A stretch of DNA of 64,000 nucleotides. It comes from Melioribacteraceae bacterium (GTDB lineage: Bacteria; Bacteroidota; Ignavibacteria; Ignavibacteriales; Melioribacteraceae). The translations under genes and the position numbers were made by a program. The stretch covers positions 1,831,511 to 1,895,510 of the forward strand of contig CP129490.1 in NCBI GenBank assembly GCA_030584085.1, read 5' to 3'. The notes beneath the pieces were generated by a model. The model made no database searches and had not been told where the DNA came from. It was given only the letters and a program-made list of their open reading frames with translations. Positions 1 through 49,969 of the stretch are shown in pieces (within the stretch, counting starts at the first letter, position 1; each line of letters starts with the position of its first letter).

Positions 1-1717
1 CGGCAAGCTTAAAAATTTCTTTCGTATAGTTATCTAATAAAATTTGTAAATCCTTGCTGAACGCCCCTAAACTTTTCTTATCAACACTAATTCCGTTTCT
101 TTCCATATCTTCAAGAACTTCAACTAACGGGAATTCAATTTCGTATGCGACTTTCTCTAAATTCTCCTTCTTTAATTCTTTCTTAAATAATTCATAAAGG
201 CGAAATGTAATGTCGGCATCTTCCGCCGCATAATTAGATAACCTTTCCAAATCAACTTCGTATATTTTGGACGCTTCTTTCTTCGCACCAATTAAATCAG
301 ACAATGGAATTGGAGTGTAGTTGAGATATTTTTCTGCTAAACTATCCATACCATGTTTTTGGTCTGGATCGATAACATAGCTTGCAAGCATTGTATCAAA
401 GTAAAAGTTCTTTACTTCTATTCCATGTGTTCTTAAAACTGCAATATCATACTTACCGTTTTGACATACTTTTTTGATCTTCTCGTTTTCAAAAACCGGT
501 TTGAATATTTTCGCAAACTGATCAAGTTCAATTCTATCCGATAAATCAGTTTCGAAAAGTTGAGTTGTTTCCTTTGACGGTTTTATCGGAATGAAATAAG
601 CTTCACCACTCTTACAAGCGAATGCACAACCGGCAAGGTTTACGTTTAAGACATCGAGCGAATCTGTCTCGGTATCAAAAACAAGTAATTCCTTTTTTGA
701 TAATTCATCTGCTAACTTTGCAGCTTCCTTAATTTTATTTACAAGATAATACTTCACTTTTTTCGAGTCGAAGTTATCAACTTCATCATTTAAATATGCT
801 TCTGTTGTTTCGGTGATTGCCTTATCTGCTTTCTTGCCAAAAAGTTTAATAAGCTTATCACCGAAATTTTTGAATTCTAATTCGACAAATAACTTTGTTA
901 ATGTCTCATAATCCGGTTCGCAGAATATTGCGTCTTCTAAATTAAATTCAAAATCAACATCGGTTACAATTGTTGCGAGTTCTTTTGAGATGATTGCATT
1001 TTCTTTTCCTTCTTCTAGCTTTTTACGCAAACCGGCTTTATCAATTATGCCAATATTCTCATAGATATTTTCAACAGATCCGAACTGTTCGATCAATGGT
1101 TGAGCAGTTTTTGGACCGATTCCCGCAACACCGGGTATATCATCACTCGAATCGCCAATCAATGCCAAATAGTCAATCATTTGAATAGGTTCAAAACCAT
1201 ATACTTCTTTAACCTTTTGCTTATCGAAAATCACTATTTCGTCGGTCGATTTACCCGGCTTAATAACTTTTACATCGTCAGTTATTAATTGCATGTAGTC
1301 TTTATCCGGTGTTATTGCAAAAGCTTCCAAGCCGGCTTCGGCAGCTTTTTTAACTGCAGTACCAATTAAGTCATCGGCTTCAAATCCGGATTTAATGTAA
1401 AGCGGCATTTTGAATGCTTCGATAACTTCTCGGATTCTTCTGATTTGTGGAATCATATCTTCCGGCATTGCTTCTCTGGATGATTTATATTTTTCATATT
1501 TATCGTGACGGAAGGTTTTTTCTTTTGAATCAAACGCAACAGCTATATAATCGGGTTGAGTATCATCTATAATTTTAAATACTTGGTTTATAAAGCCATA
1601 AACAGCTGAAGTCGGTTCACCTGATTTAGTTTTTAACGGTCTATTTATAAAAGCAAAATAAGCTTTGTATGCTAAAGCCATTGCGTCGATTATTACAAAT
1701 TTTTTCTTTTTTGCCAT
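1..1717 (-). CDS. polA: DNA polymerase I, 5' part (truncated by window edge)
   Basis: Replication and repair polymerase. Translating the minus strand from the ATG at 1717 gives about 572 residues before the window ends; the family is usually near 900, so most of the polymerase domain lies outside. Residues 1 to about 300 are the 5' nuclease domain, with VIIDAMALAYKAYF at the start and GDSSDDIPGVAGIGPKTA in the helix-hairpin-helix. A 3'-5' exonuclease domain follows and keeps FDTETDSL (DxE) and YAAEDAD, so proofreading is probably active, unlike many PolA proteins with a dead domain. The last visible residues (MERNGISVD) are the start of the polymerase domain. It diverges from the EEP gene across 89 bases. 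No clear Shine-Dalgarno is seen. Confidence 0.95.
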   Translation of the reverse strand, partial: MAKKKKFVIIDAMALAYKAYFAFINRPLKTKSGEPTSAVYGFINQVFKIIDDTQPDYIAVAFDSKEKTFRHDKYEKYKSSREAMPEDMIPQIRRIREVIEAFKMPLYIKSGFEADDLIGTAVKKAAEAGLEAFAITPDKDYMQLITDDVKVIKPGKSTDEIVIFDKQKVKEVYGFEPIQMIDYLALIGDSSDDIPGVAGIGPKTAQPLIEQFGSVENIYENIGIIDKAGLRKKLEEGKENAIISKELATIVTDVDFEFNLEDAIFCEPDYETLTKLFVELEFKNFGDKLIKLFGKKADKAITETTEAYLNDEVDNFDSKKVKYYLVNKIKEAAKLADELSKKELLVFDTETDSLDVLNVNLAGCAFACKSGEAYFIPIKPSKETTQLFETDLSDRIELDQFAKIFKPVFENEKIKKVCQNGKYDIAVLRTHGIEVKNFYFDTMLASYVIDPDQKHGMDSLAEKYLNYTPIPLSDLIGAKKEASKIYEVDLERLSNYAAEDADITFRLYELFKKELKKENLEKVAYEIEFPLVEVLEDMERNGISVDKKSLGAFSKDLQILLDNYTKEIFKLA

Positions 1718-1806
1718 ATGATTTGCAATCTTATAATTGTTTATATAGGTTAATTATTATTTTTGAATATAATTAAAAGAGAAGTTATTTACTAAAACGG
1801 GCTCAA

Positions 1807-2811
1807 ATGAAAATTCAATTCATGCTTTTTTTCGTACTTGGTTTTACGATTATGATTCCCGCACAGAATATTGATACAATATATATAGCTTCATGGAATA
1901 TTGAAAACTTGTTTGATAATGTTAATGATCTCGATAAAGAAGATGAGGAATTTTTATCAACCGGATCGAAAGAGTGGACTGACGAAAGAATTCATCAAAA
2001 AATGTCAAATCTTTCGGATGTAATTAATTTCATGAATGAAGGGAAAGGTCCCGACATCATTGGATTTATGGAAGTCGAACACAAATATTTATTGGAAAAA
2101 ATGGCAATTACATTTTTATACAATCGAAAATACATGGTTGTAGGTTTTGATTCACCGGATGCTCGCGGCATTGATAATTACTTAATGTATGATTCTGACA
2201 TTTTTGATTTAGTCGGATTTTATAAAATACCGGTAAACTTTTTTAATGATGATTACTTTACCAGAGACATATTACACGTATCTCTAGAATATCGCGATGA
2301 ATTATTAGACATTTTTGTAAATCATTGGCCATCGAGAAGAGGGGGAGAGGAAAGATCACAACCGAGAAGAGTTAATGCGGCTTCTACTTTAAAACGATAT
2401 GTTGACTCACTTCAAACAATTCGTGAATTTTCAAATTTTTTAATAGTTGGTGATTTTAATGACGAACCAAACAACTATTCACTTGATGAAATTTTATCCG
2501 CCAAAAAAATGACAGATCCAACTGCTTCATTAATTAACTTGGCTTGGGATGATTTTGAGAATGGAAGGGGAACACATCTATATAATAGAGATTTTAACAT
2601 GCTGGATCAGATAATAATTTCCAGAAGATTATTGGATGAAAAAGGACTGGAATATTTGAAAGATTCATTCGAGATAATATCGGATGATTTTTTTACTTAT
2701 ACAGATGGTCCAAATGTCAATTCAATAATGCCGTCCTTCCATAGTGGTAAATATTTAAATGGATATTCGGATCATCTTCCTGTAGGGGCGAAACTATTTA
2801 TAATGAGGTAA
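1807..2811 (+). CDS. Secreted endonuclease/exonuclease/phosphatase (EEP) family protein
   Basis: Metal-dependent phosphodiesterase fold of the DNase I/EEP superfamily, 334 residues. A hydrophobic N-terminus of about 20 residues ending near PAQN looks like a signal peptide, so export to periplasm or surface is inferred. The catalytic motifs are visible in order: ASWNIENLFD, DIIGFMEVE (metal-binding Glu), VNHWPSRRGG (His), VGDFNDEP (Asp/Asn) and YSDHLPVG (C-terminal Asp-His pair). The substrate cannot be told from sequence: nucleic acid, phospholipid and sugar phosphate are all possible. It is followed after 6 bases by an SDR gene, so the two are probably co-transcribed. Confidence 0.85.
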   Translation: MKIQFMLFFVLGFTIMIPAQNIDTIYIASWNIENLFDNVNDLDKEDEEFLSTGSKEWTDERIHQKMSNLSDVINFMNEGKGPDIIGFMEVEHKYLLEKMAITFLYNRKYMVVGFDSPDARGIDNYLMYDSDIFDLVGFYKIPVNFFNDDYFTRDILHVSLEYRDELLDIFVNHWPSRRGGEERSQPRRVNAASTLKRYVDSLQTIREFSNFLIVGDFNDEPNNYSLDEILSAKKMTDPTASLINLAWDDFENGRGTHLYNRDFNMLDQIIISRRLLDEKGLEYLKDSFEIISDDFFTYTDGPNVNSIMPSFHSGKYLNGYSDHLPVGAKLFIMR

Positions 2812-2817
2812 AAAAGT

Positions 2818-3501
2818 ATGAAGAAAATATTATTAGTATTTGGTGCCGGAGGTTCATTAGGAAAAGATGCGGTCAAAGTTTTTCTTAAAAAGGATTTTGA
2901 TCTGTTCTATTTATTCGATTCAAAAATACTGAGTTACAATAATTATAAAATCGTGTATTATCAAACCGGCGATTTGACGAAAGAAGAAAATGTAGTTGAG
3001 GCTTTCTCAACAATTGAATTTGAAAAGAATGCACAATATTATTTGTTTAGTACAGTTGGAGGATTCGGCGGCGGTAATAAAATTGTGGAAACCGAGTTTT
3101 CTGATTGGCAAAGAATGTTCGATATAAATGTTACAATTTCTTTTTTATTAGCAAAACAATTTTTTATTTCGGTTAAAGAATCTAAAGGCGGTGCTATTTG
3201 TTTTACAAGTGCATTGACTTCTGTCAGACCGCAAGAAGGTAAAATCGCTTATGGTACTTCAAAAAGTTCATTAAATTATTTGGTGAAAACATTAGTTAAA
3301 GAGGGTAAAAATTATAACATTTCGGTGAATGCTATCGCGCCATCAATTTTAGATACAAATGAAAATAGGGAATGGGTGAGAGATAAATCAATGATGATAA
3401 GGGCTTCAGAGATTGGAGAACTCGTTTATTCGCTATTTATGAATAAAAATATTGTTTCCGGCAATATAATTGAATTGCATTTTTCATTAAGTCAAGAATA
3501 A
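2818..3501 (+). CDS. Short-chain dehydrogenase/reductase, dihydropteridine reductase-like
   Basis: NAD(P)-dependent oxidoreductase of the SDR superfamily, 227 residues. The N-terminal Rossmann motif is VFGAGGSLGKDA and the active-site motif is YGTSK (Tyr-x3-Lys), with the supporting Ser in FTSALTS. Instead of the usual NNAG it carries STVGGFGGGN, which resembles the VAGGWAGGN segment of quinoid dihydropteridine reductases. That hints at a pterin or similar substrate, but only by resemblance. It lies 6 bases after the EEP gene; the following exbB gene appears to have its own promoter. Confidence 0.8.
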   Translation: MKKILLVFGAGGSLGKDAVKVFLKKDFDLFYLFDSKILSYNNYKIVYYQTGDLTKEENVVEAFSTIEFEKNAQYYLFSTVGGFGGGNKIVETEFSDWQRMFDINVTISFLLAKQFFISVKESKGGAICFTSALTSVRPQEGKIAYGTSKSSLNYLVKTLVKEGKNYNISVNAIAPSILDTNENREWVRDKSMMIRASEIGELVYSLFMNKNIVSGNIIELHFSLSQE

Positions 3502-3528
3502 AAGACAAAATGGTGATAAAATAATTTA

Positions 3529-3557
3529 TTGACTTTTTTTCGCTAAAACCTTAATGT
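3529..3557 (+). promoter_or_regulatory. Candidate promoter of the exbB-exbD-exbD operon
   Basis: TTGACT at 3529-3534 and TAATGT at 3552-3557 are separated by 17 bases, the classical -35/-10 spacing, in the 129-base gap before exbB. The gap ends in a strong GGAGG ribosome site just upstream of the ATG at 3631. This is pattern matching only; no transcript start is known. Confidence 0.35.
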
Positions 3558-3630
3558 TATAGCACTATTTTTTGATAATAAAGTTTACAAAACCAAAAAA
3601 ACAAATAAATAATTTCGGAGGTTAGCTCTC

Positions 3631-4320
3631 ATGCAATTTTCAGAGATTTTAGGATTCGCATCCTATGTTATTGCACAGGTGGAAGAAACTGGCGCACTTA
3701 CGTACCTACAGCAGAAGTTTGTTGAAGGTGGCGGTTTTATGTGGCCAATTTTAGCATGTTTAGTATTAGGACTTGGATTTTCTCTAGAAAGAATTTGGAC
3801 TCTTTCTCGCGCTACAATGAACACCAAAAAATTTATTGTTCAAGTAAAAGACGCGCTTTCTAAAGGTGGTGTTCAAGAAGCGATGAAAGTCTGCGAAAAT
3901 ACTCGCGGTTCAATTGCTTCAGTTTTTCATGCCGGTCTTTTAAGAGCTGACGAAGGTATTGAAGCTGCAGAAAAAGCTATTATGGCTTACGGTGCTATCG
4001 AAATGGGATTCCTAGAAAGAGGTCTTATCTGGATATCTACATTTATTACTATCGCACCTATGCTTGGTTTTACTGGTACCGTACAAGGTATGATTGAAGC
4101 TTTTGACGCTATTAAAGAAGCTGCGCAATTATCTCCTGCCGTTGTTGCCGGTGGTATTTCTGTTGCGTTATTAACAACTTTATTCGGTCTTATTGTTGCT
4201 ATCATACTTCAAGTATTCTATAACTACTTTGTTGCTAGAATTGACAAATTAGTTGCTGACATGGAAGAAAGCTCAATCGAATTGATTGATGCACTTTATG
4301 AAATGAAAAAAGGAAAATAA
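3631..4320 (+). CDS. exbB: MotA/TolQ/ExbB proton channel family protein
   Basis: Inner-membrane channel subunit that uses the proton gradient to energise an outer-membrane process with ExbD/TolR partners. It has 229 residues. An N-terminal hydrophobic segment (near FMWPILACLVLGLGF) is followed by a cytoplasmic loop and two further membrane helices. These carry TFITIAPMLGFTGTVQGMI and SVALLTTLFGLIVAI, the family's conserved core. The ATG at 3631 follows a good GGAGG site. Two exbD genes follow at 13 and 23 bases. No tonB, tolB or pal is adjacent, so TonB-type versus Tol-type or gliding-type use cannot be decided here. Confidence 0.92.
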   Translation: MQFSEILGFASYVIAQVEETGALTYLQQKFVEGGGFMWPILACLVLGLGFSLERIWTLSRATMNTKKFIVQVKDALSKGGVQEAMKVCENTRGSIASVFHAGLLRADEGIEAAEKAIMAYGAIEMGFLERGLIWISTFITIAPMLGFTGTVQGMIEAFDAIKEAAQLSPAVVAGGISVALLTTLFGLIVAIILQVFYNYFVARIDKLVADMEESSIELIDALYEMKKGK

Positions 4321-35963: not shown

Positions 35964-37058
35964 ATGGTTGACCAACTTGATAATATTATTGGGCAACCCC
36001 ATGCCGTTAATCAACTCAAATCTTTAGTTAGAAATAATAGAATTCCCCACGCATTAATTTTCTCAGGTCAATCAGGTGTGGGGAAATTCTATAGTGCTAT
36101 CCAGTTTATTAAGACAATAAATCAAGCAAAAGATTACTCAAAAATCGAACAGTTTGAAGAACCGCTCGTTAAACTGATCCTGCCATTACCAAGAGGAAAA
36201 AACGAGGTCAACGAATCTTCTGGCACCGAGAAATTAACCGATAAACAATTAGACGATCTTAAAAAAGAAATATTGAAGAAACAAAAAAATCTCTTCTACA
36301 AAATTCAACTTGATGGCGCTAACAATATTAAAATTAGCAGCATCAGAGAAGTAAGAAAATTTCTAAGTATAGAATACTCCGATATAAAATATAGAGCAGT
36401 AATAATTGAAGATGCTCATCTGATGAATAAAGAATCTCAAAATGCACTTTTAAAATCTTTAGAGGAACCTCCTCAAGGCGTGATTTTTATTTTGCTGACA
36501 TCGAATGAAGATTGGTTGTTATCTACAATTCTTTCAAGATGTTGGAAAGTACAGTTTAAATCTCTTTCCTTTGATATAATTACCGAAATTTTAGAAAGTA
36601 AATTCAAAATAGAAAAAGAATCCGCTTCAAAAGCAGCACTCTTTTCAGAAGGATCTGTGACTCAAGGACTGAATTTAGTTGAAAACGAGATGATCTCTTT
36701 AATAGATTCTACAATAAAATTTATGCGTTATTCCTTAGGAGGCTGGTATAATTCAGCCTATAATGAACTTAAAACCGCCACCGATGATTTTAATAGATCA
36801 AAAGTTTTTGAAGTGATGAAGTTGGTCAATATTTGGTTGACTGATACACGTAGAAACAAATTAGATTATCAATTTTACTACTTTCATGACTATCCGGATA
36901 CCCTTGAAAAATTCAATAAAAGCTTTCCAAACGCAAAAATTGATGAATTGATTAAAGAAATAGATGAGTTAATAGAATCAATGGATAAAAACATCCTATT
37001 GAATGTTATTATTCTAAATCTTATTTTAAAATTGAATTTTATCCTAACTCGGAAATAA
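35964..37058 (+). CDS. holB: DNA polymerase III delta' subunit / clamp-loader ATPase-like
   Basis: Clamp-loader subunit, 364 residues. The Walker A-like loop is SGQSGVGKFYSA, followed by the AAA core with EDAHLMNKESQNALLKSLEEPP and LSRCWKVQFKSL, all typical of delta'. The zinc-finger cysteines of DnaX-type proteins are absent, as expected for delta'. It lies directly before ricT, a gene order widely conserved in bacteria. The gap to ricT is one base. Confidence 0.9.
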   Translation: MVDQLDNIIGQPHAVNQLKSLVRNNRIPHALIFSGQSGVGKFYSAIQFIKTINQAKDYSKIEQFEEPLVKLILPLPRGKNEVNESSGTEKLTDKQLDDLKKEILKKQKNLFYKIQLDGANNIKISSIREVRKFLSIEYSDIKYRAVIIEDAHLMNKESQNALLKSLEEPPQGVIFILLTSNEDWLLSTILSRCWKVQFKSLSFDIITEILESKFKIEKESASKAALFSEGSVTQGLNLVENEMISLIDSTIKFMRYSLGGWYNSAYNELKTATDDFNRSKVFEVMKLVNIWLTDTRRNKLDYQFYYFHDYPDTLEKFNKSFPNAKIDELIKEIDELIESMDKNILLNVIILNLILKLNFILTRK

Positions 37059-37059
37059 A

Positions 37060-37911
37060 ATGTATAAAATAGATTTTTCGTTCATCCACAATAAATTAAT
37101 TTCACCTGAAGAATTAAAAGAACTCGAAGTAAACGCTAATCAACAGTATCAGGTGTTAGTTAAAGAAAAAATTAACCATCCAAATCACCAACAGATTAGT
37201 GGTTGTCTTGTTTGTGGTGCAGACTGTATGATGGAAATCCCTATTGATAATAGGAGAATAGTCGAAGTTGAATGTAAAGGTATGCTCGGTTGTCATTTTG
37301 CTGAACTAACCGATGATCTGAATATTATTCCTCAAGTCAATGAAAAGATTATCCTTGAGGGTGAAGACTATCATGAAATTGGAATAGTTAAAGAAAATTC
37401 AGAATTGCTAAAAATTAAAAGAGCAGAATTGGGACTCTTTGGAGAAAAACTTCCTAAAATTATTCGTGTTGCAAACGAAGAAGATCTTCAAAAATACAAT
37501 TTAAATTTACTTGACGAACATAAAGCAAAACCAATTTTTCTAAAGCTTGTTGAAAAGCATAGTCTGAATATGAAATTAGTTCATATCCATTATCAGTTCG
37601 ATAGAAAAAGACTATTCTTCTTTTATACATCCGATGGTAGGGTTGATTTTAGAGAACTAGCAAAAGAATTAGCTGGAGAATTCAAAACAAGAATTGAACT
37701 GCGACAAATTGGTGTTCGTGATGAGGCAAAAAGTATCGGCGGTTTAGGCACTTGTGGCAGAGAGTTTTGCTGTGCTTCATTTTTAAATAACTTTAAGCGG
37801 ATATCTACACAACTTGCTAGTGATCAAAACTTGAATTCAAATTTATCAAAGCTAAGTGGTCCATGTGGCAAATTAAAATGTTGTATTTCATTTGAGATCG
37901 ACGAAAACTAA
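37060..37911 (+). CDS. ricT: RicT/YaaT (PSP1) family protein with extra N-terminal cysteines
   Basis: PSP1-domain protein related to Bacillus YaaT/RicT, which with RicA and RicF carries iron-sulfur clusters and regulates RNase Y and development. It has 283 residues. The conserved core includes FYTSDGRVDFRELAKELA and RIELRQIGVRDEAK, and ends in two cysteine motifs: GTCGREFCC (C232, C237, C238) and GPCGKLKCC (C269, C274, C275). Unlike Bacillus RicT, residues 49-78 add five cysteines (C49, C52, C56, C72, C78), and the protein stops soon after the second motif. No ricA or ricF neighbour is seen. Confidence 0.85.
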   Translation: MYKIDFSFIHNKLISPEELKELEVNANQQYQVLVKEKINHPNHQQISGCLVCGADCMMEIPIDNRRIVEVECKGMLGCHFAELTDDLNIIPQVNEKIILEGEDYHEIGIVKENSELLKIKRAELGLFGEKLPKIIRVANEEDLQKYNLNLLDEHKAKPIFLKLVEKHSLNMKLVHIHYQFDRKRLFFFYTSDGRVDFRELAKELAGEFKTRIELRQIGVRDEAKSIGGLGTCGREFCCASFLNNFKRISTQLASDQNLNSNLSKLSGPCGKLKCCISFEIDEN

Positions 37912-48347: not shown

Positions 48348-49289
48348 ATGAATATTGCTTCGATAGATATTGGTTCAAATACAGTCCTCTTATTAATTGC
48401 AGAAGTTGATTTTAAGAAGAGAACACTTAATGCTATTCTAAACGAATATGAATCGCCTAGATTAGGAAAAGGACTTAAAGATGATGGCGCTATTTCATTA
48501 GAAGCAATTAAAAAACTGGAAACGGTGTTACACAAATACAAAAGACTTATTGAAGAATATAACACTACAAAAGTTATTTGTACTGCCACGAATGCTATGC
48601 GTGTAGCTAAAAATTCAAATCAGATTATTACTGATATAAGAGATAAACTTGGAATAGAGATAGATGTTATTAATGGAGATCGTGAAGCTGAACTTACTTT
48701 TCTTGGTGCTTCAACTGTGCTTAATGATGTTGATCAAAAAATTGTTGTGGACATTGGCGGTGGAAGTACTGAATTAATATTAGGTAATAAGGAGAATATT
48801 CTCTACAAAAAAAGTTTTCCAATCGGAGCAGTAAATACAACTGAAAGATTCTTTAATGGTAATGTACCAACAGCTTCAGAGATAAACTTATTAACTGAAT
48901 TTGTAAAAAACACATTTAATGAACTTAACAATCTTGACACTAAAAATATACCACTTATTGCCGTTGCAGGTACACCCACTTCCCTATCAGCAGTACATTT
49001 AGGAATTACTGAATATGATGAAAATTTGGTTGAAGGATCAGTTTTGACAGACGAGATCATAGAGAAATTCATTCAATATTTTTCAGATCATAGCGCAGCA
49101 CAAATTTTATTAAAATATGGTAAATTTTTAAAAGGTCGTGAAGATATTATTTTAGCCGGATCGATAATTCTAAAAACTGTTATGAAACTTACTCATAACG
49201 AACAAATTATTGTGAGCGGTAAAGGAATTCGATACGGTTCACTAATCTCTTATATGAACAATTATGAAAGTGGTAGAAAAGGTATGTAA
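48348..49289 (+). CDS. Exopolyphosphatase/guanosine pentaphosphate phosphatase family protein
   Basis: Ppx/GppA phosphatase of the ASKHA fold, 313 residues. It matches the first domain only, without the C-terminal HD domain of long Ppx proteins. The motif IASIDIGSNTVLLLIAEV is at the N-terminus and VVDIGGGSTELILG is the second phosphate-binding loop. I use the ATG at 48348, which gives this N-terminus; an in-frame start at 48321 is possible. Its 3' end overlaps the convergent Yip1-type gene by 28 bases. Confidence 0.9.
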   Translation: MNIASIDIGSNTVLLLIAEVDFKKRTLNAILNEYESPRLGKGLKDDGAISLEAIKKLETVLHKYKRLIEEYNTTKVICTATNAMRVAKNSNQIITDIRDKLGIEIDVINGDREAELTFLGASTVLNDVDQKIVVDIGGGSTELILGNKENILYKKSFPIGAVNTTERFFNGNVPTASEINLLTEFVKNTFNELNNLDTKNIPLIAVAGTPTSLSAVHLGITEYDENLVEGSVLTDEIIEKFIQYFSDHSAAQILLKYGKFLKGREDIILAGSIILKTVMKLTHNEQIIVSGKGIRYGSLISYMNNYESGRKGM

Positions 49290-49969
49290 TATAAAAGTGT
49301 TGTCAACAAAGCATAAAAAATAAATCCCACCGCAATAGAATATGGTTTGTTCTTAGTTTGAGCATGAACACCGGAAATCGCAAGAAACAACCCCCAAACG
49401 ACTAATAGTCCCTCAATAAATAAAAGAACGTATGCTTCAGTTTCTTTAACAATATAGGGTGGTGGATTATATGTAAACCAATACGGTCCAAATAATGCAT
49501 AATGGACAGGTGACAATATAACAAGTGACATAAGCAATGGTAAAAATGAGTAAATAAGTACGGAGTAATTATCTCTGAATCTGTTCGATAATCCAAATAA
49601 ACTGTTGATCTTTGTTAGGAGGTAAGAAAATAGAGATAAAACAACGAATGACACACCGATAATCACTAACAGGTTAATAAAAAAGAAATCGGTTTTAACT
49701 GAATTAATTTCAGCAAAACTATGCAGTATTACGGAAATAAGAAAAAGTTTAATTCCAACAAGAACATTTAGAAAGATTACAAAATTTTTATGCTCTGCTT
49801 CAATGATTTTTTTGAAAGTGTCTTTTGGTGATTCAATGAGTGCTGCAATCGTCTGCCATAAATCGATATTTACAACTCTCGCTCTAAGAAATGCTTTGCA
49901 ACTTGAGCAACTGTATTTATAAATTGGGTTTTCCGCATTACAATTTGGACAGAGTTGAACATTTTTCAT
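49262..49969 (-). CDS. Zinc-ribbon plus Yip1-domain membrane protein
   Basis: 235 residues. An N-terminal zinc ribbon (CPNCNAENPIYKYSCSSCKAF, two CxxC pairs) precedes a segment like WQTIAALIESPKDTFKKII, the start of the Yip1 domain, and about five membrane helices. Yip1-type proteins occur in many bacteria with unknown function. It is the last gene of the minus-strand parAB group and overlaps the convergent ppx gene by 28 bases. Confidence 0.82.
   Translation of the reverse strand: MKNVQLCPNCNAENPIYKYSCSSCKAFLRARVVNIDLWQTIAALIESPKDTFKKIIEAEHKNFVIFLNVLVGIKLFLISVILHSFAEINSVKTDFFFINLLVIIGVSFVVLSLFSYLLTKINSLFGLSNRFRDNYSVLIYSFLPLLMSLVILSPVHYALFGPYWFTYNPPPYIVKETEAYVLLFIEGLLVVWGLFLAISGVHAQTKNKPYSIAVGFIFYALLTTLLYYIPFLPLS

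Follow-up and report, generated by a model that had tools for sequence, protein, structure and literature searches.

The window, by which we mean the whole stretch of 64,000 nucleotides that was analysed, carries a ricT gene next to a holB-like gene (Table 1). Sequence comparison makes the membership of the encoded protein in the RicT (YaaT, PSP1) family secure: the open reading frame scores 223 bits against the NCBIfam RicT model NF041131 (cut-off 70) and 112.3 bits against Pfam PSP1 (PF04468; cut-off 27), and nothing else in the genome matches PSP1. Of the 69 named loci, 65 have at least 600 nt of sequence ahead of ricT, and every one of these has a holB match there, including two Bacillota loci (L172 and L173) and one from the Neomarinimicrobiota; this survey scored a match upstream rather than exact adjacency at each locus. 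PADLOC returned no match, and the PDB contains no sequence relative of the protein up to an E value of 10. As the initial annotation had noted, RicT stops just after its second core motif, with eight residues following C275. Such a short end is normal for the lineage, here taken as the Melioribacteraceae and one sister family, since 59 of its 70 aligned RicTs have 5–9 residues past the motif; the medians are 77.5 residues in the same class, 102 in other Bacteroidota and 72 in 31 Bacillota RicTs.

Table 1. Features of the ricT locus, with positions in the window
Feature	Position	Strand	Remarks
holB-like DNA polymerase III delta-prime gene	35964..37058	+	adjoins ricT
ricT	37060..37911	+	283 aa and stop; first base one after the holB stop
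Extra cysteine segment, C49–C78	37204..37293	+	N-terminal extension, beta-1 and start of beta-2
C49-x2-C52 pair	37204..37215	+	C49 at 37204-37206, C52 at 37213-37215; low-confidence loop
C56	37225..37227	+	window protein only, among 68 lineage rows
C72	37273..37275	+	last residue of predicted beta-1
C78	37291..37293	+	first residue of predicted beta-2
PSP1 domain	37456..37710	+	residues 133-217
Core motif 1, C232-x4-C237-C238	37753..37773	+	maps on B. subtilis C161/C166/C167 (PMC6751060, available portion)
Core motif 2, C269-x4-C274-C275	37864..37884	+	maps on B. subtilis C198/C203/C204 (PMC6751060, available portion)

Translation of the reading frame places C49, C52, C56, C72, C78 and both core motifs where the initial annotation had put them, its end point of 37296 lying one codon beyond C78. 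Five cysteines within 30 residues occur in RicT alone among the 53 window reading frames of at least 150 aa, a comparison that spans all six frames and takes in some frames that are not genes. With cysteine making up 0.67% of residues in the window, a given 30-residue stretch would contain five or more with a probability of 1.6e-6, before any correction for how many stretches there are. The extra cysteines of RicT are real, non-random and beyond chance. Elsewhere in the window, a 235-aa reading frame on the minus strand (49265-49969) has an N-terminal stretch of four cysteines (CPNC, then CSSC) that looks like a zinc ribbon.

An AlphaFold2 model of the window protein, calculated from 59 sequences, has a mean pLDDT of 79.1 and predicts a helix at residues 16-38, beta-1 at 67-72 and beta-2 at 78-83. 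The blocks covering residues 61-90 reach pLDDT values of 83-93, and the loop bearing the CxxC pair is of low confidence (56 for residues 41-50, 59 for residues 51-60). A second model, led by L118 with the commoner set C49/C52/C72/C81, is similar, with loop blocks at 59 and 63; the region of the core cysteines, from residue 221 on, has block values of 35-59 in the first model and of 33-61 over both. Since C72 ends beta-1 and C78 begins beta-2, the two predicted positions probably lie opposite one another with a tight turn between them. A fold search gave no match at E ≤ 0.001, the best being 0.02.

The core motifs have exactly the C-x4-CC-x30-C-x4-CC spacing that the available portion of PMC6751060 gives for RicT in firmicutes. 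According to the same portion, the ligands of cluster 1 in B. subtilis are RicT C161, C166, C198 and C203, those of cluster 2 are RicT C167, RicF C134 and C146, and RicA C141, and RicT C204 is counted there as a ligand of neither; by mapping on C204, C275 would be a non-ligand as well. According to PMC10470536, mutations that block either cluster markedly lower the pull-down of RicT with RNase Y; the paper proposes that RicT works as a pair with RNase Y and describes RicA and RicF as having a narrower distribution than RicT among firmicutes. Taken with PMC6751060, stable association of RicT with RNase Y in B. subtilis needs both clusters. Within the lineage, every core cysteine is present in 67 of 68 rows, the one other row being gapped. 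C238, the counterpart of C167, is thus kept in all 67 lineage rows with a residue at that position; it is also kept in 57 of 57 other rows from the phylum and, by motif match, in 25 of 25 Neomarinimicrobiota rows.

The lineage alignment was drawn from 108 reading frames, pooled from both searches and, on the basis of identity over their last 120 residues, reduced to 70 RicTs including that of the window; counts over 68 rows omit L137 and L139, which start at contig edges. Starts were assigned by rule (the first ATG within the 80 residues ahead of beta-1, with GTG or TTG only where there was no ATG), and as this shortens some GTG-start proteins such as L015, single counts can be off. Over the 68 rows, cysteine makes up 4.9% of residues 1-95 and 0.5% of residues 96-225, about a ninefold difference. 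Of the individual sites, 49 has a cysteine most often (61 rows), followed by 72 (52 rows), 81 (49), 52 (48) and 78 (13). C56 belongs to the window protein alone, two proteins of the same genus (L002 and L003) carrying arginine there. The window protein has alanine at position 81, and for this reason C78 may be standing in for C81. Given the distribution of C56 and C78, the idea of five cysteines forming one conserved set was discarded.

All four sites (49, 52, 72, and 78 or 81) are occupied together in 28 of 68 rows, against 25.2 expected if they were independent. C52 never appears without C49 (none of the seven rows lacking C49 has it, three of them being gapped there; Fisher p = 8e-5), and C78 never appears without C72 (13 of 13 rows; p = 0.03), both p-values being uncorrected and taking no account of kinship. 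No link exists in these rows between C72 and C81, or between the CxxC and the hairpin. A rapidly made tree from which the N-terminal columns were left out requires at least 7, 11, 8, 8 and 12 changes at sites 49, 52, 72, 78 and 81, respectively. As judged from these alignments, the N-terminal sites are labile and change separately except for the two pairs. The check proposed earlier, aligning homologues in search of any without the cysteines, did turn up lineage members that lack them at some of the sites. Two further ideas found no support: compensation within the lineage, as the variance of the cysteine total per row does not fall below that of column shuffles, and concerted change of the CxxC and hairpin cysteines, for which the rows offer no link and the supported branches of the tree too few pairs for a good test.

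A wider comparison used the RicT-bearing genomes of the phylum, of which the family-model search contained 193. Fifty-seven RicTs from outside the two families were read, made up of every one of the 12 from the same class, the top 30 by score and a further 15 selected for spread, an uneven sample to which f24, the commonest family among the 193, contributes three rows. The Neomarinimicrobiota are represented by the best-scoring 25 of 53 genomes with RicT, and the Bacillota by 31 rows (the best-scoring 30 of 32 plus L173), L172 having been dropped from the latter as coming from the same genome as L209; L170 was dropped likewise, its genome being that of L227. At least three cysteines in the extension and first barrel are present in 118 of the 126 phylum RicTs read, that is, in 62 of 69 from the lineage (L137 and L139 included, the window protein left aside), 11 of 12 from the same class and 45 of 45 from other Bacteroidota; the corresponding counts are 0 of 31 for the Bacillota and 4 of 25, the best of 53, for the Neomarinimicrobiota. 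With at least five, the window RicT has this phylum form. In the segment ahead of beta-1 alone, 10 of 12 same-class RicTs and 42 of 45 from other Bacteroidota have three cysteines or more. Bacillota RicTs and most of the Neomarinimicrobiota RicTs read start almost directly at beta-1, and none of the 31 Bacillota rows, a set without B. subtilis RicT itself, has a cysteine N-terminal to it, in agreement with the initial annotation, which describes Bacillus RicT as free of these residues. A CxxC-like cysteine pair lies in the barrel region of 9 of the 25 Neomarinimicrobiota RicTs (again the best of 53). By these sequence counts, the window cysteines are part of a phylum-wide pattern and not peculiar to one protein.

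The extension cysteines are absent from two of the same-class RicTs, which have four (L070) and two (L076) cysteines in the barrel. These two (both at 1-3657 of their loci) and L232 and L233 have no extension cysteines and two to four in the barrel, placed by eye in a loop past the last strand, possibly an alternative position of the same ligands.

The initial annotation had remarked that RicA and RicF are not adjacent to ricT. Moreover, the window's genome as a whole has no match to Com_YlbF (PF06133), the family searched for RicA- and RicF-type genes, over the family cut-off and none at E ≤ 0.001, in a search that could miss a very divergent RicA/RicF pair; two matches below the cut-off of 23.9 bits (19.4 and 18.0) fall in frames of 1273 and 828 aa. 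RNase Y is encoded outside the window (G000:C1:1694368-1695906, E 6.9e-215). Across the phylum, Com_YlbF over the cut-off is absent from 290 of 296 genomes, that of the window included, and of the six that have it only G018 is among the RicT matches. In the Neomarinimicrobiota, 53 of 80 genomes have RicT and none of the 80 has Com_YlbF over the cut-off. Among the Bacillota sampled, 25 of 32 RicT genomes match Com_YlbF as well at E ≤ 0.001; the seven that do not are without extension cysteines too, which argues against a strict rule, with the proviso that such a search can overlook YlbF proteins that are short and divergent. RicT was found in six of 14 control genomes, accompanied by Com_YlbF in Bacillus and Lactococcus and without a match to it in Thermus, Deinobacterium, Bacteroides and Thermotoga.

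Among 58 near relatives, 39 have RicT; the other 19 coincide with the 19 genomes of family f3, which belongs to the same order; ten f3 genomes in the family-model search are likewise without it. RNase Y is nevertheless present in 19 of 19 f3 genomes (e.g., G035, G037 and G039), and RicT would therefore be dispensable or replaced in this family. Tandem Com_YlbF genes occur at four loci in Ignavibacteria (L061, L062, L063 and L064) and at L174-L177 in the phylum family f29, in genomes with RicT (G013, G018 and G023) and without it (G039 and f29). Most of the proteins, those of L177 excepted, have a C-terminal tail with CC, CCG or CGC at or close to its end. Of the two loci whose neighbours were scanned, L061 has ArsR and ArsP-type permease genes and L064 an LMWP-family gene; by eye, an ArsR-like frame also lies near the tandem genes at L063. 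The tandem genes of G013, G018, G023 and G039 were considered as RicA and RicF and dropped, given these neighbours at L061 and L064 and the lack of RicT in G039. In the three genomes with both RicT and the tandem genes, too few to use, the N-terminal sites are eroded in L015 and L089 and not in L156.

What is the role of the additional cysteines? We propose, with a little less than even confidence, that the window protein is an ordinary RicT of a Melioribacteraceae bacterium, bearing the lineage form of a Bacteroidota-wide, cysteine-bearing segment that probably ligates metal and, in cis, may complete a cluster. Given the exact match of the motifs, C232, C237, C269 and C274 most likely bind a [4Fe-4S] cluster like their B. 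subtilis counterparts. The CxxC pair, C49 and C52, together with C72 and C78 of the hairpin would most likely ligate metal as well. C238 stays even though nearly all non-Bacillota genomes sampled lack its RicA and RicF co-ligands. Obvious candidates are the N-terminal cysteines, which could replace the three RicA and RicF cysteines and join C238 in a second RicT cluster, or could form a separate zinc or Fe-S site. RicT would then dock on RNase Y, its putative partner, without RicA or RicF. The suggestion in the initial annotation that the cysteines bind a metal or cluster gains from their absence in the Bacillota rows, the lack of a RicA- or RicF-type gene over the cut-off, their near phylum-wide presence in the rows read and the C49/C52 and C72/C78 pairs; it loses in that the five are not a conserved set, that the sites other than C56 each require a minimum of 7-12 changes on the tree, and that the two pairs do not covary.

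The strongest version of the proposal, in which Bacteroidota RicT is a self-contained two-cluster cofactor of RNase Y whose N-terminal cysteines replace the RicA and RicF ligands in cis, we consider unlikely. For the favoured proposal in its general form speak N-terminal cysteine enrichment, the phylum counts, the pairing, the missing RicA and RicF, the retained C238, the presence of RNase Y and the barrel cysteines of L070 and L076. Against it stand the single variation of the sites, with row totals no more even than in shuffles; the RicA/RicF-less Neomarinimicrobiota and seven Bacillota genomes, the former mostly and the latter entirely without extension cysteines; the control genomes of Thermus, Deinobacterium and Thermotoga, with RicT and no Com_YlbF match; and the low AlphaFold2 confidence of the CxxC loop and the core cysteine region. 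The Neomarinimicrobiota keep C238 mostly without N-terminal cysteines, and the earlier suggestion that these residues may let RicT act alone does not hold as a general requirement, given RicTs in that phylum that lack Com_YlbF over the cut-off and, for the most part in the 25 read, the extension. Since Bacillota with RicA and RicF also differ in phylum, and hence in ancestry, the contrast with them is confounded, and it has counter-examples; it offers experiments a lead and does not demonstrate a mechanism.

Metal could also be bound for a different purpose. A structural zinc or small Fe-S cluster that braces the extension on the barrel, unrelated to the core clusters, would make a substitute for cluster 2 unnecessary, and we grant this a modest chance. 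A C-x2-C motif with two hairpin cysteines resembles many zinc sites; C72 closes one predicted strand and C78 opens the next, C52 is tied to C49 as C78 is to C72, and most of the Neomarinimicrobiota RicTs read lack both RicA/RicF and three extra cysteines, so that a substitute is not needed generally. Yet structural sites are usually kept or lost whole, whereas here the CxxC and hairpin cysteines vary independently, and AlphaFold2 gives no confident ordered loop for either the window RicT or L118.

Two other explanations require no metal at all. That the segment is a weakly constrained tail whose cysteines have little function seems to us rather unlikely: its length, sequence and cysteine positions do differ widely, its sites change frequently and C56 is confined to the window protein, but the ninefold enrichment over residues 96-225, the 118 of 126 phylum RicTs that keep at least three cysteines and the presence of C49 in 61 of 68 rows all speak for constraint. 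Redox- or thiol-reactive switches, in which disulfides tune RicT under oxidants, are improbable. The facing ends of the predicted hairpin and the confinement of C78 to rows with C72 would suit a disulfide, and redundancy among switches would allow individual sites to be lost; other RicTs of the phylum, however, mostly have four to seven leader cysteines, often as CxxC or CxC, and no single conserved pair. Metal ligation by a Bacteroidota-wide segment is the reading we favour. In a screen of open-licence literature, judged by title and the start of the abstract, none of the papers listed describes the N-terminal cysteines of Bacteroidota RicT. The interest of the segment lies in how RicT works in the Bacteroidota and Neomarinimicrobiota, where nearly all RicT-bearing genomes sampled lack a Com_YlbF match over the cut-off.

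The closest known counterpart is RicT (YaaT) of B. subtilis, with which the window protein shares the PSP1 domain, the exact six-cysteine motif and an RNase Y in the same genome; L172 and L173, the Bacillota loci that were tested, likewise have a holB match upstream of ricT. Unlike the B. subtilis protein, it has a cysteine-bearing N-terminal extension of about 65 residues, cysteines in the first barrel hairpin and only eight residues past motif 2, and its genome has no RicA- or RicF-type gene over the cut-off. With respect to the RicAFT (Y-) complex, the RicT half of the second-cluster site is kept (C167, here C238), whereas the three cysteine ligands of RicA and RicF must be absent or supplied otherwise. 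Other Bacteroidota RicTs with a leader, such as L052, L097 and L102, also have a cysteine-rich segment before beta-1; 41 of 45 rows have four to seven cysteines in it, commonly arranged as Gly-rich CxxC or CxC runs and often ahead of a DWL motif. The lineage, in contrast, mostly has a single CxxC, plus C72 with C78 or C81 in the barrel. From this comparison of sequences, the RicT of the lineage is a variant within the widespread cysteine-leader RicTs of the Bacteroidota.
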